Source: Actinomycetota bacterium | Lineage (GTDB): Bacteria > Actinomycetota > Aquicultoria > Aquicultorales > Aquicultoraceae | Direction of reading: 5' to 3' | DNA length: 64,000 bases | Assembly (NCBI GenBank): GCA_018333515.1 | Contig: JAGXSZ010000035.1 | Span: 1-64,000, forward strand | Part shown: positions 5,008 to 63,168 of the stretch, in pieces | How positions within the stretch are numbered: position 1 is the stretch's first letter | How the letters are laid out: each line of letters starts with the position of its first letter | The notes under the pieces: generated by a model | What the model saw: the letters and a program-made list of their open reading frames with translations, nothing else | Told to the model about the DNA's origin: nothing | Database searches by the model: none | Program-made: the position numbers and the translations under genes

Positions 5008-5430
5008 ATGCTGTTACCAAAGAGGGTTAAACATAGGAAAGTTCACAGGGGTAGGATGAAAGGTCGCGCCAAAGGCGGCGACAAGATAAATTTCGGCGAT
5101 TTCGGATTACAGGCACTCGAGCCGGGCTGGGTCACAAATCGCCAGATAGAGGCGGCTCGTATCGCTATGACCCGCTATATCAAGAGGGGCGGTAAGGTCT
5201 GGATCAATATCTTTCCGGACAAGCCCGTGACGGAGAAGCCGGCCGAGACCCGCATGGGTAGCGGTAAGGGCTCGCCCGAGCACTGGGTCGCGGTTATCAA
5301 ACCGGGCCGGGTAATGTTCGAGCTGGCGGGTGTCGCCGAGCCGGTCGCGAAAGAGGCAATCAGGCTGGCGATTCACAAATTGCCGATCAAATGCAAGTTT
5401 ATCGTAAGAGAAGAGTTAGGTGGTGAATAG
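5008..5430 (+). CDS. rplP: 50S ribosomal protein L16
   Basis: L16 (140 residues) binds near the A-site tRNA elbow. It begins [15 protein letters not shown] and carries [35 protein letters not shown] and WVAVIKPGR, all family signatures. It ends 1 nt before the rpmC start, so translation is coupled. Confidence 0.98.
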
Positions 5431-5431
5431 A

Positions 5432-5641
5432 GTGAAGGCTGAGAAGTACAGAGATTTGACCGATGACGAGTTGGTTCAAAAGCTGAAAGACGCGAAGGAG
5501 GAGCTTTTCAACCTGCGCTTCCAGTTGGCCACCGGGCAGCTAGATAATCCGATGAAAATCAAAGATGCCAAGAGAGACATCGCGCGTATCCAAACAGTCC
5601 GTATGGAGCGCGAGATAGAGGCTAAGATAGCGGCGAGTTAA
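5432..5641 (+). CDS. rpmC: 50S ribosomal protein L29
   Basis: L29 (69 residues) is a helical hairpin protein at the tunnel exit. [19 protein letters not shown] is the hallmark. The frame contains GTG codons at 5420, 5423 and 5432. GTG 5432 is chosen because AGGTGG at 5418-5423 gives a proper spacing and the protein then starts [14 protein letters not shown] like its relatives. It lies just after rplP in the standard order. Confidence 0.95.
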
Positions 5642-5781
5642 GCCGTAGCTGTCGGCTTTGAGCGGTCGGCTTGCGGGCACATTGGACCGGCGATACGGTC
5701 GAACGACAAAGGAAGAGTTGCCTGGCGGCCGCAGGCTGAAAGTCCGGTAGATAAAGACAGATGTCTTATATGGAGGTTTTG

Positions 5782-41516: not shown

Positions 41517-41651
41517 GCGCTAAGGCGGCCACCACCCGCACGGGTGATTCCGCCCCGATGCGGCCTGCTATCCGATAAGCACGTGATGGTGCGTTTTACT
41601 GGACTATTGTCCGGTTTAAAAATAGAAGATGATTATTTTGGGGGGAATATA

Positions 41652-44306
41652 ATGTCAGGTAGCAAAAAGTATGTCTACGATTTTAACGAAGGCACGGCTG
41701 AGATGAAGTACATTCTCGGTGGGAAGGGCGCGAACCTCGCCGAGATGACACGGATTGGCCTGCCGGTTCCGCCGGGCTTCACAATAAGCACCGGAGCATG
41801 TAACGAATACTACCGGACCGGAGCATTTCCCGATGGGCTTCCGCAAGAGATCGATATGCACCGTGAAGCACTTGAGCGGAAGATGGGTAAGAAGCTTGGA
41901 GACCCGGATGACCCGTTGTTGGTCTCTGTCCGCTCCGGAGCCGCGTTTTCTATGCCCGGCATGATGGATACGGTTCTAAACCTGGGCCTGAACGATGAGG
42001 CTATCAAAGGATTGACCAAGCAGACCGGCGACGAGCGCTTCGCTTATGACTCTTACCGTCGTTTCATCCAGATGTTCGGCAAGGTGGTCCTGCGCATCGA
42101 GGGCGGGCTCTTCGAGGATGCGATAAATGAACTAAAAGAAAAGAAGGGCGCGAAACTCGATACCGATCTGACCGCGAACGATCTAAAAGCACTCGTCCGA
42201 ATGTTCAAGGATATCGTCCGCGAACATACGGGCCGCGAATTCCCGACAGACCCAAAAGAGCAATTGATCTTGTCAGTCGAGGCTGTCTTTAAGAGCTGGG
42301 GCAATAAGAGAGCCGTTGATTACCGCAAGCTATATAAAATACCGGATGACCTCGGGACCGCGGTCAACATCCAGACGATGGTCTTTGGAAACAAAGGTGA
42401 TGACTCGGCGACCGGCGTCACTTTTACGCGTGACCCCGCGACCGGCGAGGACGTGCCATACGGCGACTACCTGATCAATGCGCAGGGCGAGGATGTCGTA
42501 GCGGGGATAAGGGTCACCGAGCCGCTCCTCAACCTTAAGGCGGAAATGCCGGCGCTCGCCGATGAGCTGCTGAAGAATATGGACATACTCGAGAAGCACT
42601 ATCGGGATATCTGCGATATAGAGTTCACAATCGAGCAGGGTAAACTCTGGATGCTCCAGACCAGAATCGGTAAGAGAACCGCAGCGGCGGCCTTGAGAAT
42701 AGCCGCTGAGATGGTCGAAGAGGGCCTTATCACCAAGAGAGAGGCCGTCCAAAGAATCGACCCCGAGCAACTGGACCAGCTGTTGCACCCGCAGTTCGAC
42801 CCGAAAGCCAAAATCGAGGTTCTAACGAAAGGGCTTAACGCTTCACCGGGCGCCGCGGTCGGCAAGGTCGTCTTCGACGCCGACACCGCGGAGGAGATGG
42901 GCCAAAACGGCGAGAAAGTCATCCTCACACGCTGGGAGACGACCCCGGACGACCTTCACGGCATGGTCGCCGCGCAGGGTATTCTCACCAGCCACGGCGG
43001 CAAGACCAGCCACGCGGCGGTCGTCGCCCGAGGCATGGGCAAACCATGCGTGTGCGGTGCGGACGCGATTAAGATAGACTCCAAGAACAAAGTATTCACC
43101 GTCAACGGTGTTCAGGTAAGAGAGGGTGACATAATATCTATCGACGGCACTACCGGAAGCGTGGTGGTCGGCGCGGTGGGATTAGTGCCTCCGAAACCGA
43201 CCAAGGAATTCGAGCTCATATTGGGTTGGGCGGACGAGATTAGGACGCTCGGGGTTCGCACTAACGCGGACACGCCGGAGGATAGTGAAAAAGGGCGCCA
43301 ATTCGGCGCCGAAGGAATCGGCCTGGCCCGCACCGAGCACATGTTTCTCGGGGACCGTTTGCCCATCGTCCAGCGGATGATTTTAGCCAAGAACGAAGAT
43401 GAGGAAAAAGACGCGCTCGCCAAATTATTAAAAGTGCAGAGAGATGACTTTCTCGGCATCTTCAAGGCAATGGACGGCTTGCCGGTGACCATAAGATTGC
43501 TCGACCCGCCGCTCCACGAGTTTTTGCCGCGACAAATCGACCTGAAGGTCGAAATCACCAAGATGGAGATGAGCGGCGCGACAGACGCCGAACTCGCCCC
43601 CAAGAACGAGCTTCTCGACGCGGTCGAGCGGATGGCCGAGATGAACCCGATGCTGGGCTTGCGCGGCTGTCGTCTGGGTATCACGCACCCCGAGATATAC
43701 AAGATGCAGGTACGCGCGATTATGGAGGCCGCTTGCCGGCTGAAAAAAGAGGGCGGCGACCCGAGGGTCGAGATAATGATACCGCTCGTGGCGCACGTCA
43801 ACGAACTCGACATCTTGCGCAAAGAGAGCGAAGAGGTAATCGCGGAAGTCATCGCCGGCAGCGGTGTCGATGTCGAATACAAGATAGGTACGATGATTGA
43901 GATACCGCGCGCCGCTGTTACGGCCGACGAGGTCGCGACTGTCGCGGACTTCTTCTCATTTGGTACGAACGACTTGACGCAGATGGCCTTTGGTTTTAGC
44001 CGCGACGATATCGAAGCGAAGTTTCTCCCGCGCTATCTGGAGAGAAAGATATTGCCGAGCAACCCGTTTGAAACAATCGATGACGGTGTCGCCGCGCTGG
44101 TCGAGATGGGGTGCCGTAAGGGTCGCGCCACCAAACCCGAGCTTAAGCTCGGCGTCTGTGGCGAGCACGGCGGCGACCCCGAATCGGTCAAGAAGTTCCA
44201 CGCGATGGGCCTGTCGTATGTGAGCTGTTCTCCATACAGGGTTCCGCTCGCACGCCTCGCGGCCGCCCAGGCGGTTCTGGGCGACAGCTCTTCGAGTTCT
44301 AAGTAG
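41652..44306 (+). CDS. ppdK: Pyruvate, phosphate dikinase
   Basis: PPDK (884 residues) interconverts pyruvate + ATP + Pi and PEP + AMP + PPi. The ATP-grasp domain (KYILGGKGANLAEM, VSVRSGAAFSMPGMMDT), the phosphohistidine domain (TSHGGKTSHAAVVARGMG) and the PEP/pyruvate barrel (FFSFGTNDLTQM, GVCGEHGGDP) are all intact. ATG 41652 follows GGGGGGAA; the frame open from 41544 is not used. A reversible PPDK is common in anaerobes. The window also holds a divergent relative at 57.5 kb. Confidence 0.97.
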   Translation: MSGSKKYVYDFNEGTAEMKYILGGKGANLAEMTRIGLPVPPGFTISTGACNEYYRTGAFPDGLPQEIDMHREALERKMGKKLGDPDDPLLVSVRSGAAFSMPGMMDTVLNLGLNDEAIKGLTKQTGDERFAYDSYRRFIQMFGKVVLRIEGGLFEDAINELKEKKGAKLDTDLTANDLKALVRMFKDIVREHTGREFPTDPKEQLILSVEAVFKSWGNKRAVDYRKLYKIPDDLGTAVNIQTMVFGNKGDDSATGVTFTRDPATGEDVPYGDYLINAQGEDVVAGIRVTEPLLNLKAEMPALADELLKNMDILEKHYRDICDIEFTIEQGKLWMLQTRIGKRTAAAALRIAAEMVEEGLITKREAVQRIDPEQLDQLLHPQFDPKAKIEVLTKGLNASPGAAVGKVVFDADTAEEMGQNGEKVILTRWETTPDDLHGMVAAQGILTSHGGKTSHAAVVARGMGKPCVCGADAIKIDSKNKVFTVNGVQVREGDIISIDGTTGSVVVGAVGLVPPKPTKEFELILGWADEIRTLGVRTNADTPEDSEKGRQFGAEGIGLARTEHMFLGDRLPIVQRMILAKNEDEEKDALAKLLKVQRDDFLGIFKAMDGLPVTIRLLDPPLHEFLPRQIDLKVEITKMEMSGATDAELAPKNELLDAVERMAEMNPMLGLRGCRLGITHPEIYKMQVRAIMEAACRLKKEGGDPRVEIMIPLVAHVNELDILRKESEEVIAEVIAGSGVDVEYKIGTMIEIPRAAVTADEVATVADFFSFGTNDLTQMAFGFSRDDIEAKFLPRYLERKILPSNPFETIDDGVAALVEMGCRKGRATKPELKLGVCGEHGGDPESVKKFHAMGLSYVSCSPYRVPLARLAAAQAVLGDSSSSSK

Positions 44307-52292: not shown

Positions 52293-52367
52293 TCCTCGGT
52301 AGCTCAATGGTAGAGCATTCGGCTGTTAACCGAAGGGCTGTAGGTTCGAATCCTACCCGGGGAGCCA
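52293..52367 (+). tRNA. tRNA-Asn(GTT)
   Basis: The sequence folds as a full tRNA. The acceptor stem is TCCTCGG/CCGGGGA, the D arm GCTCAATGGTAGAGC, the anticodon arm TTCGG-CTGTTAA-CCGAA with anticodon GTT, and the T arm GTAGG-TTCGAAT-CCTAC. Discriminator is G, and CCA is encoded. A T6 run follows at 52372. It stands at the left edge of an AT-rich accessory region, a common integration site. Confidence 0.97.
52344..52358 (+). repeat. Candidate att-like repeat, left copy (in tRNA T arm)
   Basis: GTTCGAATCCTACCC in the tRNA-Asn 3' half matches GTTCGAATCCAACCC at 55371-55385 in 14 of 15 positions. The pair could be left and right core sites of an integrated element spanning 3.0 kb. T-arm sequences are widely conserved, so the second copy may simply be a tRNA relic. 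Confidence 0.3.
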
Positions 52368-52481
52368 AATGTTTTTTCATGTGTCAACCAACCCATAAAT
52401 TATGCCTTTAAACAGGCATGTATTAATATCTGCCTACAGTTATGGGGTACGGTAACAGCTTGGACGAGGAAACAAAAACCC

Positions 52482-52532
52482 TTGACCCCGCTTTATGTTC
52501 TAATATATTAGACATAAGTCCAATATATTAGA
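52482..52532 (+). promoter_or_regulatory. Twin palindromes and promoter upstream of the MNT/HEPN pair
   Basis: TCTAATATATTAGA (52499-52512) is a perfect palindrome. TCCAATATATTAGA (52519-52532) follows exactly 20 bp later with one change. TTGACC at 52482-52487 and TATATT at 52504-52509 make a promoter whose -10 lies inside the first palindrome. The same architecture is found at 55424-55457 before the AbiE pair, which points to a common repressor. Confidence 0.65.
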
Positions 52533-52569
52533 ATCCTTTGCTGCCTGAAATAGGGTTTTGAAAATAGTA

Positions 52570-52597
52570 TTGACCAATATCTATAATTCAATATAAT
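52570..52597 (+). promoter_or_regulatory. Proximal promoter of the MNT/HEPN pair
   Basis: TTGACC (52570-52575), 16 nt, then TATAAT (52592-52597). The expected start near 52604 coincides with the first possible ATG, so that ATG would be leaderless. This favours the internal ATG at 52634. Confidence 0.65.
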
Positions 52598-52633
52598 GAA
52601 CATATGCATCAAAATAATGAATTTAAGGTTATT

Positions 52634-53182
52634 ATGCTAAAAGATATTCTTTTAAACACCGCCGCCAATAAAGTCCTTGGCTTCCTAACGTTACACCAAG
52701 ACGCTTCTTTTTATGATAAAGAAGTTTCCGAGAAAACGGGTGTCAGCCGTGGTATGACCAACATGGTTCTTCGCCAGTTTTTTGATGCCGGTCTGCTTGA
52801 GAGAGAGAAGCGGGGCCGGATGTGGTTTTACACTCTATCTACTAATCCACTTTTTAAGTATTACAGGGTCTATGAAAATCTTGTGAATTTAGAGAACCTT
52901 GTTAAGGCTCTAAAACCAATCTCCCAAAGAGTAATTCTGTTCGGAAGTACCGCCAAAGGAGAAGATACCGCCGAGAGTGATATTGACCTCTTTATCCTTA
53001 CAACCCATAAAGACGGAGTGTTAAAAGCAATTCGTGAATATGATATTGAACGAGAAATCAAGCCGGTGCTGCAGACTCCGTCAGAATATGCGGTATCCAG
53101 AAAAAAAGACAAAGCTTTCTATGGCGAAGTGGCAAAAGGAATAGTTTTATTTAATAAGGAACCAGATGAACAAAGACTTTGA
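52634..53182 (+). CDS. MNT-type nucleotidyltransferase with N-terminal winged helix
   Basis: The 182-residue protein has a winged-helix domain (about 1-85: YDKEVSEKTGVSRGMTNMVLR) and a minimal nucleotidyltransferase domain (about 90-165). The latter holds FGSTAKGEDTAESDIDLFI, which is GS plus D-x-D. MNT proteins pair with HEPN toxins and in studied cases AMPylate them. The HTH suggests autoregulation. ATG 52634 is preferred over ATG 52604 because of the promoter position and AAGG upstream. It overlaps the HEPN gene by 17 nt. Confidence 0.85.
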   Translation: MLKDILLNTAANKVLGFLTLHQDASFYDKEVSEKTGVSRGMTNMVLRQFFDAGLLEREKRGRMWFYTLSTNPLFKYYRVYENLVNLENLVKALKPISQRVILFGSTAKGEDTAESDIDLFILTTHKDGVLKAIREYDIEREIKPVLQTPSEYAVSRKKDKAFYGEVAKGIVLFNKEPDEQRL

Positions 53183-53603
53183 GAAATGCTTAAAAAAGAA
53201 AAGCATCGTTAAACAGCCACACGCCGAAGCTCTAATTGGCGATGAACTTAATGCGGCAATTAGGGATTTAAAAAGAGCCAAAAGAACCTATGACGAGTTT
53301 CTGGATGATTTAGATTACAAATGGGCAACAATTCAAGCCTATTATTCCATGTTTCATGCGGCAAGAGCTTTGCTGTTTAAAAAAGGCTACCGCGAGAAAA
53401 GCCACTACTGCTTAAAAATAGCTATCCAGGCACTTTATGCTGATGAAAAAATAATCGACCAGAGTTTCGTGGATGATTTTGATACAACCATACTCCTTCG
53501 AGAAACAGCAGATTATAAATCCGATTTCTCAAAAGAAGGAGCCGAATCTGCACTCGAAAATGCTGAGGAGTTTTTAAGAATTACTGAAGAACTCTTAAAA
53601 TAA
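53166..53603 (+). CDS. HEPN-domain protein, probable toxin partner
   Basis: This 145-residue helical protein has the HEPN core YYSMFHAARALLFKKGYREKS followed by HYC, giving an R-x3-H pattern close to that of PF05168-type HEPN proteins. HEPN proteins are often metal-independent RNases. The start lies within the end of the MNT gene, so the two are co-translated. Base composition is AT-rich compared with the housekeeping genes, suggesting transfer. Confidence 0.85.
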   Translation: MNKDFEKCLKKKSIVKQPHAEALIGDELNAAIRDLKRAKRTYDEFLDDLDYKWATIQAYYSMFHAARALLFKKGYREKSHYCLKIAIQALYADEKIIDQSFVDDFDTTILLRETADYKSDFSKEGAESALENAEEFLRITEELLK

Positions 53604-53794
53604 AGCTTTAAAGTCTTAGTTAAGCAATCAAACGGATAGTCTTACGATGCATATAAGCACAATTGCTCCAAAAGCCTGCGGTATAAATGTCAAGCGCATG
53701 TTTTTAGTAAAAATCCTCAAGAAGTGAATGCTCAACTAAGCCCATACAACAAAACATCTGCAAGGGCTATGTGCAAGCATATAACCATCAATTA

Positions 53795-55030
53795 CTATCT
53801 AAAGACACCTACCTTAGGCTCGTAGAGCCTCTTAGATTGCAGCAGTGAAAAAACGAGCCGCACGAGTTTTCGTGCGGTCAGTGCGGTCGCTCGGCGATGG
53901 TGGTGCGTCTTAGCCTCAGCATACTTTCTCTCATAGTAGGCGCGGTACTCGTCGTTGTGTACGCGAAGCGAGTTGGCCGCCTCATAGAGATAGTAGCGAA
54001 GGTACGGGTTGCCGGTTTTGCTCATGTGCGTCTCTTCGGCTTCAAATTGGCCGCTTCTTCGCACATGCCAAGTGAGACCGGCATACTTTGCCAGTGCCGC
54101 CTGGTCCTTAAACCGCGTGACATCGCCCACCTCGGCAATAATGCCGGCACACAGTACTGGACCTAAGCCCTTGACGGTGCCCAGGGTATGAGGAATATGA
54201 GCGATCTCTTTTGCAATGGCGAGATCGGTGATTTTTACCTGGGCTTGTAGCGCCTGTATGTTTCTCAATGTTGTCGCCAGGATGAAGTTGATCGGCTCAA
54301 GGATCTTTTTATCTAGCCGGTAAGCATCCCTGGCAGCCTGCTTAACACTTTCTGCTACCTCTACTGGGTCTGTAATTGTATTGTTACTGCTTTTCTGCAC
54401 AAAAGCGGCGAGTTCATCGATATCCGTCTCTGCGATCTCATCAACCGAGTAGAACTCAGTAAGAATCGCTGTGCTCGTGGCGCCAAAGGTATTAGTGATG
54501 ATGCCTCTTGGCTTAAAGGTGTTAAATTTGAGCGACAGATACGAGAGGAAATAGTTCTTCTCATCGGTGATCTGCTTGATGAGCCGATACCGAAATCTGG
54601 TTAGTCTTTGCAGTGGCTGATACCTCTCATCGTGGTAGCACTCTGCCGGGAGCCTCCCAAAGCGAAGCCTATCAGCGATAACCCACGCATCGATTCGATC
54701 CGTCTTTGGCAAAAACGGGTACGACTTCTTAAAACCTTTAACGATTTTTGGATTGATGCTGTAGACCTTGGGATACAGGTGGGAAAGTTCAGCTTCCGTC
54801 GAAAGGTACACTGACAAGTGCCACCAGTAGGTAGCTGTTGCCTCCATGCCGACAAGTAAGCTATCTATACTGTGTTGAGCTGCGAGTGCAAGGCATTTGT
54901 CTTTCAGGCCGGTAGCACCGGTGAGATCATTTGAAAATGAAAACGTTGAAAGCTCATCGCCAGTGCTATTCATGAGACAAGCCCAGTTCTCTTTTTGGGC
55001 CACATCGATGCCAACGTAGAGCGGATTCAT
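53795..55030 (-). mobile_element. IS110-family transposase gene
   Basis: The transposase has 411 residues. The N-terminal RuvC-like DEDD domain shows YVGIDVAQKEN, VGMEATATYWW and KTDRIDAWVIAD. The C-terminal Transposase_20 domain shows VKGLGPVLCAGIIAEVGD and LAKYAGLTWHVRRSG. The start on the minus strand is ATG at 55030, with GGAGG about 10 nt before it; the frame is open farther upstream but that part is non-coding leader. No stop or frameshift interrupts it, so it may be active. IS110 recombinases use a bridge RNA encoded in the element; element ends were not found with confidence. Confidence 0.93.
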
Positions 55031-55370
55031 AGCATACACCTCCTTCATTGGGTATAAAGAGCTTAGGGTGCCCGAGCTTTTCGGTGCCAACAGACTCGCC
55101 GATAAGAATTTTCCAAGAGGTGGCGTATTCCTTTTACCTGCTGCGACCATAAAAGGGCTACCATCTTGGGTAAAACATCCTGCGGTTAGAAGTATGCAAC
55201 CGGAAAGCTTCAGGCGGACACGCTTTTGTAGAAGTCCAAACGGCAACAAGTTCGAAAAAGTCCTGTCCCTTAGCGCTTAAGATATATACTTCCCGCACGG
55301 GCACCCTAACTATTAATTTACTGGTTGATTATTCACTCTTAAAGAATGGTCCCTTGAGGTATTTATACGA
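55031..55370 (-). ncRNA. IS110 5' non-coding end, likely bridge RNA region
   Basis: Upstream of the transposase start (read on the minus strand) is a gene-free stretch. It contains a perfect 12-bp inverted repeat, TTAGGGTGCCCG at 55063-55074 and its complement at 55298-55309, enclosing 223 nt. In the IS110 group the bridge RNA that pairs with donor and target DNA is encoded at this side of the gene. Exact RNA ends and guide loops cannot be fixed by eye. Confidence 0.45.
55063..55309. repeat. 12-bp inverted repeat flanking IS110 leader
   Basis: TTAGGGTGCCCG (55063-55074) and CGGGCACCCTAA (55298-55309) are exact reverse complements. Both arms lie on the same side of the transposase gene, so they are not conventional terminal inverted repeats of the whole element. 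Confidence 0.85.
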
Positions 55371-55385
55371 GTTCGAATCCAACCC
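55371..55385 (+). repeat. tRNA T-arm-like sequence, right copy
   Basis: GTTCGAATCCAACCC resembles a tRNA T arm and matches the tRNA-Asn copy at 52344 with one mismatch. No intact tRNA surrounds it. A second tRNA-like piece (GCTCAAGGGGTAAGCA, 55514-55529) recalls a D arm. These may mark a former integration boundary. Confidence 0.35.
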
Positions 55386-55423
55386 CCTGGTTTGTGTTAA
55401 AAACTCATAACTCAGTCTCATCG

Positions 55424-55457
55424 TCTAACATAATAGATAGTTGTCTATAATATTAGA
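55424..55457 (+). promoter_or_regulatory. Twin palindromes upstream of the AbiE pair
   Basis: TCTAACATAATAGA (55424-55437) and TCTATAATATTAGA (55444-55457) lie 20 bp apart, start to start, and match the pair at 52499-52532 in spacing and sequence. A TATAAT sits inside the second copy (55446-55451). They are about 170 bp before the AbiEi start. Confidence 0.6.
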
Positions 55458-55624
55458 TTGCAGATTTCTCAAAACCTTTCTACAAATAATGATAATACCA
55501 AAGCCCCTCTGTTGCTCAAGGGGTAAGCAATCGTATACCGGTTTTGCGTTAAAAACTCTTGCAATATGTTCCGATTAGTATAAAGTATGTTATGAAAGTG
55601 TCTATAAATGGGTCCCTACATGTT

Positions 55625-56392
55625 ATGAAAAAGACAATATTATCGAAAAAAGACTTGGAAATACTGGAAGAGATAATCTCACGGTACGGCTACGTCGTGA
55701 GCTTTGATGGTCTGCGGGCGTTACTCAAAGACGTCTCTTATGATGCGCTTAAAAAAAGGATTGGACTTTTAGTTCAAAGAGGCTGGTTGATTCGCATCAA
55801 ACGAGGGGTTTATGCTGTTGCCAATCTTGAGTCTCACAGCTTCTCAAATATTTCCCCCTTGGTGGTCTCTCAAGTTCTTGTTCCCAATTCCTATGTGTCG
55901 TTTGAGTTTTCCCTGAATTACTACGGGCTTTTTGATCAGTTACCTCGCAAGGTGACGGCGGTATCTACCGCAAACCCCAAGATGTATAATTTCCAAAACC
56001 TTGAATACCAATTCGTAAAAACAAAACCTGAAATGCTGACCGGCTTTATCCAAATAACGGTTGATAATCAGCAAGCGAAAGTTGCTGAGCTTGAAAAGGC
56101 CTTGCTTGATTTTCTTCAGTTTAGAAAGGATAGCTATACAGTCGACCTGATCCTGGAGAAATTAAAAGAAGCTAATGGCGAAATCAATCCCCAAAAAATG
56201 GCCGACTATGCAAGTCTCTATCCGATCACCATTCAAAGAAGAATCGGTTTTCTTTTGGACATCTCAGGCATTGATTCAAGCCGGCTTTTCGAGAATATAA
56301 AAAACACGCCTGGGTTTGCAAAGCTCACAAAGAATTCTACCAAATTTAATTCCAAATGGAGACTCTACTATGAAGATCGATTTGTTAAGTAA
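55625..56392 (+). CDS. AbiEi-type antitoxin (winged-helix regulator)
   Basis: The 255-residue protein has an N-terminal winged helix (LSKKDLEILEEII, ALKKRIGLLVQRGWLIRIKRG) and the AbiEi body with SFEFSLNYYGLFDQLP and VAELEKALLDFL. AbiEi is the antitoxin and autorepressor of the type IV AbiE system. The frame is open from 55559 with ATG also at 55592. ATG 55625 gives the family start, but no clear ribosome binding site decides it. It overlaps the toxin gene by 23 nt. Confidence 0.85.
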   Translation: MKKTILSKKDLEILEEIISRYGYVVSFDGLRALLKDVSYDALKKRIGLLVQRGWLIRIKRGVYAVANLESHSFSNISPLVVSQVLVPNSYVSFEFSLNYYGLFDQLPRKVTAVSTANPKMYNFQNLEYQFVKTKPEMLTGFIQITVDNQQAKVAELEKALLDFLQFRKDSYTVDLILEKLKEANGEINPQKMADYASLYPITIQRRIGFLLDISGIDSSRLFENIKNTPGFAKLTKNSTKFNSKWRLYYEDRFVK

Positions 56393-57125
56393 ATCCCAGC
56401 TCTCCATTGCAAATAAGAATAACTTTCGCTATCCCTTAGCCATTGCCGAAAAGGATTATCTTTTGGCGGTTGTTTTGCAAATAATCTACAATTCACCACT
56501 CAAAGACACGCTCATCTTTAAAGGCGGCACGGCGATTCACCATCTCTACCTTAACCAGCTGAGGTTCTCCGAAGACCTTGACTTTGCGACAGCTCAAGCT
56601 TTAACTATCGACGATATAAAAGAGGTTTTTGAGCCATATGATTTTTTGGAGGTCGTGAAATTCTATCATTCAGATTTTGCCTTAAAGATTGAGCGATTAA
56701 AGTTTACCGGTCCTCTGGAGCAGCCCAACTCAATAAAAATCGACATCGACTTAACGCAAAGACTCATTCTGCCAGCTCAAAAAAGAGCGTACCGAAATAT
56801 TTATGGGGTGTCGGCCACGGTTTTAAGCATGGATTTAAAAGAAATTTGTGCCGAGAAAGTGCGGGCCATTAATGAGCGGGCAAGATATCGAGATTTTTAT
56901 GACCTGGCTTTAGTTTTAAAAGAACACAATATTGAAGCAAAAGAGATCGTTGAGATACTAAAGCAAAAAGAACTAAGAAAGCCATTAAGTAAAAACTCGA
57001 TTCTAGGGAATCTGCAAATAACCGAAGAAGCAAGGCAATCCGGCGCTGAGAATCTTTATTATAGGGAAGAGATTGCTTTGAATGAGATAAAGAAGGCATT
57101 GGATGGGCTTCTTTATCGTCTTTAG
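56370..57125 (+). CDS. AbiEii-type nucleotidyltransferase toxin
   Basis: This 251-residue protein carries the AbiEii/DUF1814 nucleotidyltransferase signature: FKGGTAIHH, then RFSEDLDFA, a later DIDLT acidic site and AEKVRAINERARYRDFYDL. AbiEii-like toxins (for example MenT-type enzymes) transfer nucleotides to tRNA and stop growth. ATG 56370 lies inside the antitoxin gene. The frame is intact and AT-rich like its neighbours. Confidence 0.88.
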   Translation: MKIDLLSKSQLSIANKNNFRYPLAIAEKDYLLAVVLQIIYNSPLKDTLIFKGGTAIHHLYLNQLRFSEDLDFATAQALTIDDIKEVFEPYDFLEVVKFYHSDFALKIERLKFTGPLEQPNSIKIDIDLTQRLILPAQKRAYRNIYGVSATVLSMDLKEICAEKVRAINERARYRDFYDLALVLKEHNIEAKEIVEILKQKELRKPLSKNSILGNLQITEEARQSGAENLYYREEIALNEIKKALDGLLYRL

Positions 57126-57180
57126 ACAAGACACCCCCATGCATTACCGGTATCCATGCTTAAAGAAAGGGTTTTAGGAC

Positions 57181-57504
57181 ATGCAAATATCTATCAACGA
57201 CTTGGAAAGTCTGATAGATCCGACAATCCTTCAAAGAGGCAAGGATTATTTTAGGCGGGGCCTGGTGACAGACCTAGAAGAGGTTGAAGAAGATAGATGG
57301 TCGGCTTTGGTTGAGGGCACCGAAACCTATGAGGTTGCTGGTCGGCTCATCGAGCACGAGTATCTTCGGGTTCATAAAATAAATCTTCCTCTGCCTGCTT
57401 TATTGGCGGCACTGTCTGTCAAACCGAATAGTAGTGATCTCAACACTTTTTCAGACCCTTTCTCATTTGCTATACTTGATGGAAAACGGTGTCCTCTGTT
57501 ATGA
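57181..57504 (+). pseudogene. Truncated SWIM zinc-finger-type gene
   Basis: The first 60 codons (LESLIDPTILQRGKDYFRRG, VTDLEEVEEDRWSALVEGTE) match the N-terminus of SWIM zinc-finger proteins. The sequence then leaves the family just before the expected CxC...CxH finger and ends after 107 codons. The last codons overlap the next gene in ATGA (57501-57504). It is probably a remnant left by recombination, although a short coupled protein cannot be excluded. Confidence 0.6.
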
Positions 57505-60500
57505 AAAAATTTCGGTCGCTTTTATCGAAAAAACGTGTTTGCGAGCCATTGGTGAACCTGCAGGGTTCGCATGTCAGGAAATACCGAGCTTTTAGAATAT
57601 TTCTTGACCATAACCATACCGCGCTTTCCGCCATTGCGGATCTCGAACAGGCCTACTACAGCGGCAAGCCTTTTTCCTTATCCTGGGCAGGCTCGCGCTA
57701 TGAAGCCCTGCTGGAAGCGGCTCTCGGCGTTGTGTACGCGCTTGCGTCGCTCGAGGGCAGGTCGGTTTCGGTGCTCGAAACGACTCTTTCCGGAATCGAC
57801 ACGCTGATCACGAAAGAACTCACTTCCCGATACTCCGCCGGGCCAAGTGACCCGGTCATCCCCTTTGAGCGAATCAAAAGGGATGATGTTCGCATAACGG
57901 GCGCAAAGGCCGCGAATCTGGCAAGGATCGGTAATAAGCTTAGCCTACCGGTTCCGGTCGGCTTCAGTATTACGACTGTCGCCGCCGAGAGGTTCCTATC
58001 GGAAAACGGCCTCAATCAACTTATCGCGAAAAACCTCGCGCAGGTGTCACCGGACCAGCCTGAGGCGTTCGAGCGTCATGCGGAGACCATCCGTGCCGCG
58101 ATCATCGCAGCGGACGTTCCCCCGGACATTGCCGACCAGATCATCCGGGCCTACCGGGATCTGGAAAAAAAGACCCAGCCCGGGGTTCGCGTCGCGGTGA
58201 GGAGCAGCGCCATAGGAGAAGATACCGAGGCCACGTTTGCCGGCCAGTATGAGACCGTGCTGAATGTAGCGGAAGGCGACATTCTCGATGCCTACAAGCG
58301 CGTGCTCGCGAGCAAGTACTCCTCCCACGCCGTCGCCTACCGCCTGCGCTACGGTCTTTCCGACCGGGAAACCCCCATGGCTGCCGGCGTTGTGGCCATG
58401 ATCAATCCTAAGGTCAGCGGCGTAATGTACACCAACTCGCTTTTCGGCGGCATCGGCGATATCGGCATCAGCGCGGTACGCGGTCTTGCCGGACGGCTTG
58501 TCGACGGCAGCGCCTCGCCCGACCTTTTTGTTGTTGATCGCGAATCGCGGCGGATCAAGGAGCGTAGGTTGACGAGACAGGAAATCCGTATGGTGAACCT
58601 TGAAGCAGGCGGCACCGCTCTTCAGTCGGTACCCGAACCCGAACAGAACGTTTCATCGCTCGACGATGATGCCGTGCAAAGGCTCGCGGAGTACGGCGTC
58701 AAGCTCGAAGCGCTTTTCGGAGTTGCCCAGGATGTGGAATGGGCCCTCGATCAATCGGGAGACATACTTATCCTTCAGTCGCGGCCCCTCGGTGGAAGCC
58801 CTTTATCCGGCTCCGTCGCGCCGGCCGGGGAAATCAGCGGTTACTCAGTCCTGTTATCCACCGGAAAAACCGCCTGTCCCGGTATGGCCGCGGGCCCGGT
58901 CTTTGTCCTGCGTGAGGGCGTTCCCGCCGAAAGCGTTCCGGAGGGGGCGGTGCTCGTGGCGCGGACCGCCTCGCCGAACCTCGCGAAGCTCGTCGGCAAA
59001 GTAGCCGCGATCATCACCGACATCGGCAGCGCCGCAAGTCATCTTGCGTCGGTCGCGCGTGAGTTCGGGATACCCATGATTGCGGACGCGGGAAATGCCT
59101 CTACGACTCTGAAGACCGGGGACTTAGTAACCCTGACAGCGGAGCCTCCGAGGGTTTATGCAGGCATCGTCGAAGAGTTGACCGCACTGATACGGCCCAC
59201 GAAGAAGCAGGTCTTCGACAGCCCCATACACCGCAAGATGCGCCGCGTTCTCGACTCGATCTCTCCGCTCAATCTTACCGACCCCGCCGACCCTTCCTTT
59301 TCTCCCGAGGGGTGCAAAACAGTCCACGACGTCATCCGGTATACCCATGAGCAAGCCGTCCGATCGATGTTCGGCTTGACTGACGAGGCTAAAGTAGTGC
59401 GTTCGATCGAACTCAAGGCGAAAAGTCCCTTTGAACTGCGGCTGATCGACTTGGGTGGCGGGTTGAAACAGGGGCTTACCACCTGTCATGAGGTCACGCC
59501 CGACGATGTCGAGTCCTTCCCGTTTAGGGCGATCTGGAAGGGATTCACCCATCCGGGCGTGAGCTGGGAGGGTTCTATCGGCCTGAACATGAGCAAAACG
59601 CTGACGCTCCTGTCTGCGAGCATGACATCGGAATTCGGCCCTTCTTTGGGAGTGGTCAGCTACGCCGTCCTTACCGGGGAGTACATGAACCTCGCCGCGA
59701 AGTTCGGCTACCATTTCGCGACGGTCGATGCCCTGGTCGGCGACAACAGCAGCCAGAATTACATATCGCTCCAGTTCTCCGGTGGCGCGGGGAGCTACTA
59801 CGGCAAGTCGCTCCGTATTGCCTTCCTCGGCAGCGTCCTCGGAAAACTTGGCTTCCAGGTCAAGATGCGCGGCGACCTGATCGAGGGGTCGATCACGGGC
59901 TATGACCGGCCGTCGCTTGAGGAAAAACTCGACCAGACAGGACGCCTATTTGCGTCCTCGCGCCTTTTGGATATGGCGCTTTCGAATCGGTCCGACGTGG
60001 AGCGATTAACCGAGGCATTCTTCAAAGCCGATTACGACTTCCTCGAGTCCGGGCGGGACAAAGGATTAGCAAATTTCTATACGCATGGCGGATCATGGAA
60101 AGAAGCAAACGAGGCCGGCCGGCAGGTCTGTATACAGGACGGCTCTCGCGCCGGGTTCACGATCTCATCAGGCGTGGCGGGCGCCATGAACAGGCTTGTG
60201 GGGCAGGCGTTGCAGGAGTTTCTCGACAACGTCGAGGCCTACTACTACTTCCCTTTGGCAATCGCGAAGGACATTCAACTGTCGAACGGCGCGGTGCGCG
60301 TCCGCGTGAGGCCGGTGAGCGGCAACATCGATCGGGCAGGGGGGCTCGTCTTTGGTATGAGAAACGTGAGCAATTATTTCGTCTTCCGGATCAACGCTCT
60401 GGAGGACAACGCCATCCTCTTCGAGTTCATCAACGACAAGCGCGTAGAGCGGGCAAGCGCCCGTGAAAAGATTACCCCGGGCCGATGGCGCGATCTCCGC

Positions 60501-60677
60501 GTCGAGGTCAAGGGGCACGGCATTCGCTGTTTTCTGGACGACCGTGTAGTGCTGGAATATGAGGCCGATAAACCGGTCCAGGGCTATGTCGGCTTCTGGG
60601 CCAAGGCGGATTCCGTAACGCTCTTCGACGGACTGGCCATTGAGACCGAAACCGGTTCAACGAAGATCGGCTGCTGA
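57501..60677 (+). CDS. PEP-synthase-like phosphotransferase with LamG-like C-terminus
   Basis: The 1058-residue protein has five parts. Residues 20-115 are helical. Residues 125-430 are a PPDK/PEPS ATP-grasp domain (TGAKAANLARIG, VAVRSSAIGEDTEATFAGQYETVLNV, DVEWALDQSGDILILQSRPL). Residues 445-550 are a phosphohistidine domain (PGMAAGPV, TDIGSAASHLASVAREFGIP; likely catalytic His514). Residues 590-850 are a domain I do not recognise. Residues 890-1050 are a LamG/concanavalin-like jelly roll. The C-terminal PEP/pyruvate barrel is missing, so the acceptor is probably not simply pyruvate. ATG 57501 is used; GTG 57489 is an alternative. A PP2C phosphatase follows. Function unknown. Confidence 0.8.
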   Translation: MKKFRSLLSKKRVCEPLVNLQGSHVRKYRAFRIFLDHNHTALSAIADLEQAYYSGKPFSLSWAGSRYEALLEAALGVVYALASLEGRSVSVLETTLSGIDTLITKELTSRYSAGPSDPVIPFERIKRDDVRITGAKAANLARIGNKLSLPVPVGFSITTVAAERFLSENGLNQLIAKNLAQVSPDQPEAFERHAETIRAAIIAADVPPDIADQIIRAYRDLEKKTQPGVRVAVRSSAIGEDTEATFAGQYETVLNVAEGDILDAYKRVLASKYSSHAVAYRLRYGLSDRETPMAAGVVAMINPKVSGVMYTNSLFGGIGDIGISAVRGLAGRLVDGSASPDLFVVDRESRRIKERRLTRQEIRMVNLEAGGTALQSVPEPEQNVSSLDDDAVQRLAEYGVKLEALFGVAQDVEWALDQSGDILILQSRPLGGSPLSGSVAPAGEISGYSVLLSTGKTACPGMAAGPVFVLREGVPAESVPEGAVLVARTASPNLAKLVGKVAAIITDIGSAASHLASVAREFGIPMIADAGNASTTLKTGDLVTLTAEPPRVYAGIVEELTALIRPTKKQVFDSPIHRKMRRVLDSISPLNLTDPADPSFSPEGCKTVHDVIRYTHEQAVRSMFGLTDEAKVVRSIELKAKSPFELRLIDLGGGLKQGLTTCHEVTPDDVESFPFRAIWKGFTHPGVSWEGSIGLNMSKTLTLLSASMTSEFGPSLGVVSYAVLTGEYMNLAAKFGYHFATVDALVGDNSSQNYISLQFSGGAGSYYGKSLRIAFLGSVLGKLGFQVKMRGDLIEGSITGYDRPSLEEKLDQTGRLFASSRLLDMALSNRSDVERLTEAFFKADYDFLESGRDKGLANFYTHGGSWKEANEAGRQVCIQDGSRAGFTISSGVAGAMNRLVGQALQEFLDNVEAYYYFPLAIAKDIQLSNGAVRVRVRPVSGNIDRAGGLVFGMRNVSNYFVFRINALEDNAILFEFINDKRVERASAREKITPGRWRDLRVEVKGHGIRCFLDDRVVLEYEADKPVQGYVGFWAKADSVTLFDGLAIETETGSTKIGC

Positions 60678-60701
60678 GGGATGACAGAGAAGGGAAGTTC
60701 A

Positions 60702-61415
60702 ATGCGCGCGGTATGGAAGACGGACAAGGGGAGACGCAAGAGGGTGAACGAGGACGCCGTTCTTGTCGATGAGGACGCCGGTCTTTTTCTTCTTGCCGAC
60801 GGCATGAGCGTTCCCCGTGCCGGGCGTGTAGCAAGCCGCCTGGCTGTACGAAAAGCCCATGCGTTCTTAAAGGAACGGCTTGCAAAAATGCCTGGTGCCG
60901 ATATCCCGCCCCTGCTGAGCCAGGCTGTCGAGTATGCCCATGAGGCTGTGCGGGAAGCGTCCGCGCGGCGTCATCTGCTCTGGGGCATGGGAACGACGCT
61001 CCTGGTCCAGCATATCAGGGGTGAAACGGCCTGTATCGGCCATGTCGGCGATAGCAGGGCGTATCTCCTCCGGAAGGGGCTGGAACTTATCACGAAAGAC
61101 CATATCTTGGAGATCCGGGTTGACCAGGACGTGATGATACGCGAGCTTTTCTTCTTCCATAGGACACGCGTGCTCAGCCGGTCTCTCGGGTCGTCGGAGG
61201 GCGTCGTCGGCGATATACATGTTCGCGAGCTACAGCCGGGCGACATAATGCTCCTCTGCTCCGACGGACTGACCGATATGTTGTCTGATGAGACGATCGG
61301 GGAGATTATGGTGAGCTTTGGAAGTGATATAAATGCTTCCGCCGAGGCTCTGATCGACGCGGCTAACCGCATGGGTGGCCGCGACAATATTTCAGTCGTG
61401 CTAATCATGGTATAA
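60702..61415 (+). CDS. PP2C-family serine/threonine phosphatase
   Basis: This 237-residue metal-dependent phosphatase shows RKRVNEDAVLVDED, LLADGM, GHVGDSRAYLL, LLCSDGLTDML and GGRDNISVVLI, with all the metal-binding Asp residues of PP2C. ATG 60702 is preferred because GAAGGGAAG precedes it; ATG 60681 is an alternative. It follows the PEP-synthase-like gene by 24 nt and probably acts with it, for instance by controlling its phosphorylation. No kinase is adjacent. Confidence 0.9.
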   Translation: MRAVWKTDKGRRKRVNEDAVLVDEDAGLFLLADGMSVPRAGRVASRLAVRKAHAFLKERLAKMPGADIPPLLSQAVEYAHEAVREASARRHLLWGMGTTLLVQHIRGETACIGHVGDSRAYLLRKGLELITKDHILEIRVDQDVMIRELFFFHRTRVLSRSLGSSEGVVGDIHVRELQPGDIMLLCSDGLTDMLSDETIGEIMVSFGSDINASAEALIDAANRMGGRDNISVVLIMV

Positions 61416-61641
61416 GAGGAATCCGATAAAGGGTGGGTGCGGTGAATGCTTTAGGGATACCCCGGCAAACCATCAGGGGATTTCTTAGTACGGCACTCGT
61501 CATATTGACATAAGCATGTAACCAATCGAGCCCGCAAGCAGGATATTGCGTAAGTTAAAAATTACTTAAAGAATTTACGGAAGAATTGAGGCTTGACCGT
61601 GCGCGCACTATCGAAAATTCCGCGTTATTGGACTGACACTA

Positions 61642-61693
61642 TTGACCGATGGCCCCGTTTTAGATATTATATCAATGTTTATTGATATAATAT
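61642..61693 (+). promoter_or_regulatory. ars promoter with embedded ArsR operator
   Basis: TTGACC (61642-61647), 17 nt, then TATTAT (61665-61670) forms the promoter. The -10 lies in the left arm of a perfect 13-bp inverted repeat: ATATTATATCAAT (61664-61676), GTTT, and its complement (61681-61693). Repressor binding would block RNA polymerase directly. The ATCAA...TTGAT core is typical of ArsR/SmtB operators. An extra TTGATAT lies at 61697-61703. Confidence 0.85.
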
Positions 61694-61712
61694 CCATTGA
61701 TATGAGGAACCT

Positions 61713-62069
61713 ATGGAAAAGTGCTGCCTTGAAGGGTCTAAAGAATTCAGCAGGCTCGAACAACTTTCAGACTATTTAAAGATTATCGCCGACACCAATC
61801 GCCTGCAGATTCTCTGCCTGCTGAAGAAGGGTGAGCGATGTGTCTGCAATATCCACGAACCGCTGGGTATGCCGCAAAATCTTGCCTCGCACCACTTAAA
61901 GATCTTGCGTGACGCCGGCCTGGTTATCTCCCGCAGGGAGGGCAAGTGGGTTCACTATCGTATTGATGTCGAGAAGTTCGACTACTTGACCAGTCTATAT
62001 AACGAAGTAATCCTGGGCGGCTTAGACGAAGAACAGAGTACCGAGTTTTTTAAGAATAATTTAGGCTAA
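61713..62069 (+). CDS. arsR: ArsR/SmtB-family arsenic-responsive repressor
   Basis: ArsR (118 residues) is a winged-helix repressor released by arsenite. [13 protein letters not shown] holds the C-x-C metalloid-binding pair at the start of a helix, and [19 protein letters not shown] is the recognition helix. Two more cysteines (CC at residues 4-5) could be the third ligand. It follows its operator and precedes acr3 by 13 nt. Confidence 0.95.
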
Positions 62070-62082
62070 TTGGAGACATGGG

Positions 62083-63168
62083 ATGGAGACCGATATTAAG
62101 ACCTGCAATCCGGCGCGAAGCGGGCTTTCTTTTCTCGATAGGTTTCTGACTCTTTGGATATTCTTAGCGATGGCCGTCGGCGTCGCCATGTTTTTTGTAG
62201 CACCGGGCGTCATAGACGTCATTACCAGATTCCAGGTGGGGACGACCTCGATTCCGATTGCCGCCGGCCTCATCCTTATGATGTATCCGCCGCTTGCCAA
62301 GGTGAAGTATGAAGAGTTAGGCGAGGTTTTTCGAAACCGAAAAGTTCTTGGTCTATCGCTGGTTCAAAATTGGGTCGTCGGGCCTATTCTTATGTTCGCG
62401 TTGGCGATAATATTCCTGCGCGGCTATCCCGAGTATATGGTCGGCCTCATCATGATCGGGCTGGCGCGCTGCATCGCTATGGTCATCGTCTGGAACGAAC
62501 TGGCTAAAGGCGATACCGAGTACGCGGCGGGCCTCGTAGCCCTTAATTCTATCTTTCAGGTTCTTTTCTATTCGGTCTACGCGTACGTCTTCATAACCGT
62601 CCTGCCGCCGTTCTTCGGCCTTGAGGGCATCGCGGTCGACGTCGGCATCGGACAAATCGCCGAGAGCGTCTTTGTATACCTCGGTATTCCGTTTATCGCC
62701 GGTATGCTGACACGCTTCGCGCTCCTTCGGGTAAAGGGAAGCCGGTGGTATGAGACGAAGTTTATTCCGGCGATTAGTCCGATAACCCTGATTGCGCTGC
62801 TCTTTACGATAGTGGTCATGTTCTCGCTCAAGGGCGAGACGATCGTTCGTATCCCGCTCGATGTCGTGCGCATAGCCATACCGCTCTTTATCTACTTCGT
62901 CCTCATGTTTCTCGTCTCGTTTTACATGGGCAAGAAAGTCGGCGCCGACTATTCGAAGAGCTGCACGCTCTCGTTCACGGCGTCCGGCAACAATTTTGAG
63001 CTGGCGATAGCGGTAGCGATTGCGGTCTTCGGTATCGACTCAGGAGCCGCTTTTGCGGCCGTTATCGGGCCATTGGTCGAGGTACCGGTCCTCATCGGCC
63101 TCGTAAATGTCGCGCTCTATTTTCAGAAGCGCTACTTTACGGTAGACGAGGTATGCCCGGTTAAGTAG
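62083..63168 (+). CDS. acr3: Arsenite efflux transporter ACR3
   Basis: ACR3 (361 residues) exports arsenite. It has ten hydrophobic segments, the conserved cysteine in [12 protein letters not shown] and the C-terminal [20 protein letters not shown] motif. It is co-transcribed with arsR. No arsenate reductase (arsC) follows in this window. Confidence 0.95.

Follow-up and report, generated by a model that had tools for sequence, protein, structure and literature searches.

A barrel-less dikinase with a LamG-like tail and an adjacent PP2C phosphatase in a genomic island of an Actinomycetota bacterium

The window analysed here comprises the first 64,000 nucleotides of contig JAGXSZ010000035.1 from an Actinomycetota bacterium of the family Aquicultoraceae (GCA_018333515.1). 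Two adjacent genes near its right end encode a dikinase-like protein and a PP2C-type phosphatase (Table 1). The dikinase combines an ATP-grasp domain and a swivelling phosphohistidine domain with an undescribed domain, which stands where phosphoenolpyruvate (PEP) synthases carry their PEP/pyruvate barrel, and ends in a LamG-like tail. Residues are counted from the GTG that opens the longest open reading frame (ORF; 1062 aa), and the numbers are therefore 4 higher than in an earlier note made from the sequence of this DNA, whose His514 is His518 here. The likely start is ATG 57501, because DNA homology with the closest relative begins exactly at that position. The start coordinate and the PP2C gene given in the earlier note agree with this homology and with the ORF list.

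The catalytic half of the dikinase is well preserved. The Pfam families PPDK_N (E 1.8e-78) and PEP-utilizers (E 5.6e-18) match residues 136-434 and 484-550, and nothing else in the protein scores over the Pfam cut-off. In the alignment, K140, R238, E244, D245, E407, D415, E417, Q430, R432 and H518 are kept in at least 75 of the 76 relatives; as is established for pyruvate, phosphate dikinase (PPDK), the ATP site and the phospho-carrier histidine are among them. When a whole-family profile was compared with true PEP synthases, 436 columns aligned with a probability of 100%, and the alignment ended at residue 562. The PEP synthase equivalog model (TIGR01418) gives 300 bits against a cut-off of 739.75 and matches only residues 123-563, the match reaching residue 563-565. 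The rifampin phosphotransferase (RPH) model NF041857 (203 bits, cut-off 999) is likewise confined to the ATP-grasp and histidine parts, and the PPDK models, among them TIGR01828 (41.7 bits, cut-off 843), match little beyond the histidine part. By these features the protein is not a PEP synthase, PPDK or RPH. The order of the two catalytic domains is that of PEP synthase and PPDK, and, with these residues conserved, the engine transferring phosphate from ATP to histidine is intact; very probably, the protein works by the same swivelling-histidine logic as its superfamily.

The similarity to PEP synthase and PPDK ends at the third domain (residues 566-860, about 290 residues), which is unrelated to their C-terminal barrel; the tail that follows it is also absent from these enzymes. 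A Pfam scan of 54 relatives revealed no convincing match to the barrel or to any other family, and the probability of a profile match between this region and true PEP synthases is 0.3%. A profile search of the PDB with the new domain gave no match below E 0.1. AlphaFold predicts a mixed alpha/beta structure of modest confidence (mean pLDDT 74, pTM 0.69) with no TIM barrel, and Foldseek found no solved structure similar to this model below E 0.015. A remote PEP barrel is ruled out by the Foldseek search, the Pfam scan of relatives and the profile comparison. Thus, the domain matches no Pfam family or solved fold and is undescribed. It is present in all long and short members of the family, which also share the N-terminal helical domain, and among the ORFs of the collected loci only evident fragments carry it without the ATP-grasp half. 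H613, D614, R617, H620, H742, R776, D796 and D828 are kept in 74-76 of 76 relatives, are identical across every genomic context, and look like a catalytic or binding site. The earlier note had described an ATP-grasp and a phosphohistidine domain followed by an unrecognised domain instead of a barrel, and had regarded the dikinase as rewired; all of this withstood the analysis.

Dikinase logic with an acceptor other than pyruvate is known from RPH and from the phenolic dikinases HpeHI, CreHI and PpsAB (PMC12167813), and we propose such an acceptor for the window protein. None of the comparisons made revealed homology between its acceptor domain and RPH. The domain order differs as well: RPH reportedly has the ATP-grasp, acceptor and histidine domains in this order, whereas in the window protein the acceptor domain comes last of the three. 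Another relative, VadK (Rv1127c) of Mycobacterium, is a barrel-less PPDK relative that autophosphorylates on histidine and acts as a regulator (PMC13400623). It shares with the window protein an ATP-grasp and histidine unit devoid of a pyruvate/PEP-binding domain; however, VadK simply lacks a third domain, while the window family has a conserved new one in its place. Relatives in which the acceptor domain has changed are known to inactivate antibiotics, to initiate the breakdown of aromatics or to regulate metabolism, so the new domain probably means new chemistry or new signalling.

The tail resembles the CBM66 of levanase (Foldseek TM 0.85 on the target, profile E 1e-8), and Pfam gives a weak, sub-threshold LamG-like match around residues 957-1033. 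It is predicted to be a CBM66-like beta-sandwich, in line with the jelly-roll C-terminus recognised earlier; carbohydrate binding is putative. Unlike CBM66 and LamG-like domains, the tail belongs to a protein that must meet ATP and has no obvious signal peptide, and its nearest stand-alone relatives are members of chromate-resistance clusters. One of them, which by eye probably has a signal peptide, is in the same chromate cluster as a tailed dikinase (L074), and others adjoin ChrB in L009, L010 and L093. Relatives on plasmids of Cupriavidus metallidurans, Burkholderia vietnamiensis, Sphingopyxis, Methylobacterium and Pedobacter cluster with ChrA and/or ChrB; a tail match on a Nocardia plasmid has a DUF1259 neighbour and no chr gene in the stretch seen. 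Since these stand-alone relatives lie in chr clusters, the tail on its own, apart from the dikinase, indicates a link with oxyanion resistance. All plasmid matches are to the tail domain only, and no plasmid spread of the whole dikinase was seen. A stand-alone LamG-like protein is common to the plasmid chromate clusters of several bacterial groups (L178, L179, L181, L182 and L183), and several of these clusters also carry an ABC transporter and a DUF1259 (LppY/LpqO) protein.

The family is widespread. The C-terminal half used as a query matches 160 of the 396 genomes sampled in the phylum of a Nitrospirota locus (L013), 122 of 297 in the phylum of a Desulfobacterium locus (L019), and 7 of 297 in the phylum of the window, several of the last by the tail alone; a few tail-only matches occur in all three samples, and the counts slightly overstate the dikinase itself. 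Among 11 genomes of its family, only that of the window has the tailed form. A protein whose acceptor domain has no Pfam or fold match is thus found in about 40% of the sampled genomes of two phyla. In many genomes its members are probably labelled PEP synthase or PPDK, and metabolic models built on these labels would be misled. The literature searches made for PEP-synthase-like genes located in ars or chr operons turned up no paper on one, and the family is, as far as found, uncharacterised.

The genomic settings of long and short members are different. Neighbours within 6 kb were surveyed, with ORFs called by a simple longest-first script and labelled by phmmer. Two-component genes (response regulators and histidine kinases) accompany 34 of the 37 tail-less members. 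Of 22 receivers beside short forms, 21 carry the motif pattern of a phospho-acceptor, and many short forms adjoin receivers that have no output domain. Tail-less members frequently come as two diverged paralogues in tandem, next to a receiver and sensor kinases (L095, L101, L102, L105, L108). In turn, genes for ChrA, ChrB, ArsC-like proteins or ACR3 lie near 25 of the 39 tailed members and none of the 37 tail-less ones; in these counts L015, a clipped locus, was moved by hand to the tailed group, and this makes the contrast stronger. The raw Fisher p of 1e-8, calculated with L015 entered as tail-less, is only a guide, because the surveyed loci are mainly best-scoring matches and are related by descent. 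These links to two-component systems, chromate and arsenic genes, and phosphatases make the function behind the annotation "PEP-synthase-like" a testable question. One tailed member (L088, G392:C30) is split into ORFs of 664 and 283 aa, probably by a frameshift or because the copy has decayed.

Three unrelated types of phosphatase are encoded beside members of the family. The window PP2C scores 53.6 bits with Pfam PP2C_2 (cut-off 24) and carries the metal-binding Asp motifs NED, ADG, SDG and RDN; it is Stp1/IreP-like (E 9e-54), although its 182 bits are under the equivalog cut-off of 230. A PP2C gene lies 3' of the dikinase on the same strand, with a gap of 4-55 bp, in the window, L013, L014, L074 and L075, and none was found near tail-less members. 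In the tree, these five members fall within one supported group of ten and do not form one clade; the PP2C label changes at least twice. The PP2C match of L155, 2.9 kb from its dikinase, was not counted as the same pairing because it is non-adjacent and in a different setting. The second type comprises ArsC-like proteins of the LMW-PTP kind, encoded immediately upstream of the dikinase in eight tailed members, often with overlap. The third is a dual-specificity phosphatase found in L081, L094, L146, L147 and L159, directly beside the dikinase in all of them except L081. The pairing of the dikinase with PP2C, which the earlier note had linked to regulated phosphotransfer, is real and recurs in some relatives. 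Action of the PP2C at the Thr beside the catalytic histidine, a control of the PDRP/PSRP kind, is disfavoured, because this Thr is present only in L074 among the five PP2C-linked members; the window, L013, L014 and L075 have Ala.

In the tree, the window dikinase groups as sister (support 100) with its counterpart in a Nitrospiria genome from Hainich, to which it is 78% identical in protein sequence. With L013, the window shares one 3.8 kb block (57501-61306, 76% DNA identity) which covers both genes and little else; both reading frames are preserved in it, and the PP2C proteins are 65% identical. Judging by this sequence comparison, the dikinase and PP2C genes were acquired horizontally and moved as one unit. 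They now belong to a recent island missing from the genome G160 of the same genus, where the arsR region follows tRNA-Asn within about 340 bp; homology with G160 stops just beyond the tRNA, which is the probable integration site. The island is low in GC (0.42), with the dikinase and PP2C genes as the exception (0.58-0.59). In addition to these, it contains an IS110-type transposase and two gene pairs named by eye, one helix-turn-helix/nucleotidyltransferase-like and one AbiEi/AbiEii-like; no integrase was identified in the island. A chimeric contig was ruled out, as the sequence on either side of the island is collinear with G160 (89-91% DNA identity). A 107-aa ORF (57181-57504), which overlaps the start of the dikinase ORF, looks by eye like the beginning of a SWIM zinc-finger protein and is probably a truncated remnant at the left edge of the two-gene unit.

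Table 1. Position of the dikinase, its domains and the surrounding features in the window
Feature	Coordinates	Strand	Evidence or remark
Barrel-less dikinase with LamG-like tail	57501..60677	+	Longest ORF begins at GTG 57489
N-terminal helical domain, residues 1-122	57489..57854	+	AlphaFold secondary structure; homologues
ATP-grasp domain (PPDK_N), residues 136-434	57894..58790	+	Pfam; conserved K140, R238, E417, Q430, R432
Swivelling phosphohistidine domain, residues 484-550	58938..59138	+	His518 at 59040-59042; Pfam
Undescribed domain in place of the PEP/pyruvate barrel, residues 566-860	59184..60068	+	Profile, fold, conservation
LamG/CBM66-like tail, residues 861-1062	60069..60674	+	Fold and profile matches
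PP2C-type phosphatase	60681..61415	+	Likely start ATG 60702; metal-binding Asp motifs intact
tRNA-Asn (GTT)	52293..52367	+	ARAGORN; left boundary of the island
Genomic island, about 9.3 kb	52368..61660		blastn against same-genus G160 (locus L172), composition
Native ArsR-type repressor	61713..62069	+	Right-hand neighbour of the island
Native ACR3 arsenite efflux transporter	62083..63168	+	TIGR00832 equivalog, over cut-off

Experimental data come from Desulfovibrio. In D. vulgaris and D. alaskensis, a nitrate cluster contains genes for a PtxB-like protein, a sensor kinase and a CheY-like receiver, followed by one for a "pyruvate phosphate dikinase", which has ATP-grasp and mobile domains, and one for a dual-specificity phosphatase (PMC4001038). 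The order of these genes (DVU0245-DVU0251) is reproduced at L094, whose receiver is read in the third frame at about 5400-5745, and the same genes are divergent to the tailed member of L081. The Desulfovibrio dikinase-like gene (DVU0246) is 2235 bp long, and a LamG tail is not reported for it, unlike the window protein; by synteny only it is a member of the family, and it provides the one phenotype found for it. D. vulgaris transposon mutants in this gene, the receiver and two others grew normally in 100 mM nitrate, whereas the phosphatase mutant was inhibited (PMC4001038). However, phosphatase and dikinase are not consistently opposed: in D. alaskensis, the effect of the phosphatase mutation agrees in sign with that of the other mutations in the cluster (PMC4001038).

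Taking all this together, we propose, with a probability of about 0.5, that the protein is a stress-regulated dikinase that phosphorylates a non-pyruvate acceptor, that the tailed branch is specialised for toxic oxyanions, and that in this branch the reaction is controlled or reversed by a phosphatase encoded next to the dikinase, which in the window is the PP2C. It would belong to the PEP synthase/RPH superfamily but use a new acceptor domain. The ATP-grasp domain would charge His518 from ATP, with AMP and Pi as the expected products; the charged histidine domain would then swing to the 566-860 domain, and the phosphoryl group would pass to the non-pyruvate acceptor held there. Since the charged residues of this domain are unchanged across genomic contexts, one common acceptor is favoured, more likely a small molecule than a protein specific to each context. 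The family may thus serve as an output module of stress signalling, in which the tail-less branch is paired with output-less receivers, while the LamG-tailed branch would respond to chromate or arsenate stress, with PP2C as a dedicated partner.

Several facts weigh against this proposal. For 14 of the 39 tailed members, the available sequence contains no resistance gene up to 6 kb away, and PP2C adjoins only 5 of the 39, the window included. The three ArsC-like neighbours tested resemble thioredoxin-type arsenate reductases and score below the NCBIfam equivalog cut-offs. The arsenic link in this host could be chance, because the island landed beside an ars operon whose ArsR and ACR3 are native to the genus (ACR3 is 88% identical in G160), in a genome without ChrA; therefore, the oxyanion link of the family rests on the donor-side relatives. 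To our knowledge, no activity, acceptor or phenotype is known for any tailed member.

Alternatively, the protein may be a regulatory protein kinase of the VadK type, which passes the histidine phosphate to a partner protein, for example a receiver or a resistance protein, that docks on the new domain, while PP2C, ArsC-like or dual-specificity phosphatases undo the modification. We consider this rather unlikely, although a protein acceptor stays well alive owing to the precedent of VadK and to the output-less receivers beside many short forms. The three phosphatase families next to these genes would also suit it, as would the shared phenotype of the D. vulgaris dikinase and receiver mutants, opposite to that of the phosphatase mutant; the same sign in D. 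alaskensis does not. Moreover, the charged residues do not vary with the partner, which fits a common small acceptor better, and PP2C enzymes dephosphorylate Ser/Thr, not His or Asp.

It is also improbable that the PP2C is a mere passenger carried along downstream while the dikinase acts alone. Its scarcity among tailed members and its repeated changes on the tree speak for a passenger; however, the tight same-strand arrangement in all five cases, its absence near tail-less members and the transfer in one block with both frames kept argue for a partnership. Finally, the new domain as an independent second solution to pyruvate binding, in an unusual PEP synthase or PEP sensor, agrees with the best scores of the catalytic half being against PEP synthase models but is very improbable, as the barrel is absent by profile, fold and motif, the settings are those of stress and signalling and not of carbon metabolism, and the genome already has a second, barrel-bearing PEPS-like gene and a ppdK (41544-44306), the latter in support of the view in the earlier note, which had seen it at 41.7 kb, that the role is not simply gluconeogenesis.

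The proposal of a stress-regulated dikinase can be extended to a new signalling route, which we regard as speculative and doubtful. Here, a two-component system would end in a dikinase and not in DNA binding: the output-less receiver would control the histidine domain or exchange phosphate with it, and this domain would phosphorylate the common acceptor that the new domain holds. In the LamG-tailed branch, the route would be tied to toxic-oxyanion stress, with a swappable phosphatase of the PP2C, ArsC-like or dual-specificity type.

The second PEPS-like protein of this genome (736 aa, G000:C35:78870-81100; L002, L072) is encoded outside the window and is conserved in the genus. It has altered motifs, SIGMSDLVM for SIGSNDLTQ and VAGESA for ICGQA, and is possibly another rewired dikinase. 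In the ars operon to the right of the island, a gene for a 317-aa permease stands between arsR and ACR3 in G160 (L172 7051-8004) and is missing from the window at 62070-62083. Directly before arsR, both the window (61660-61720) and G160 (L172 8190-8620) contain an AT-rich palindromic repeat, ATATCAATG...ATTGATATAAT, which is likely the ArsR operator.

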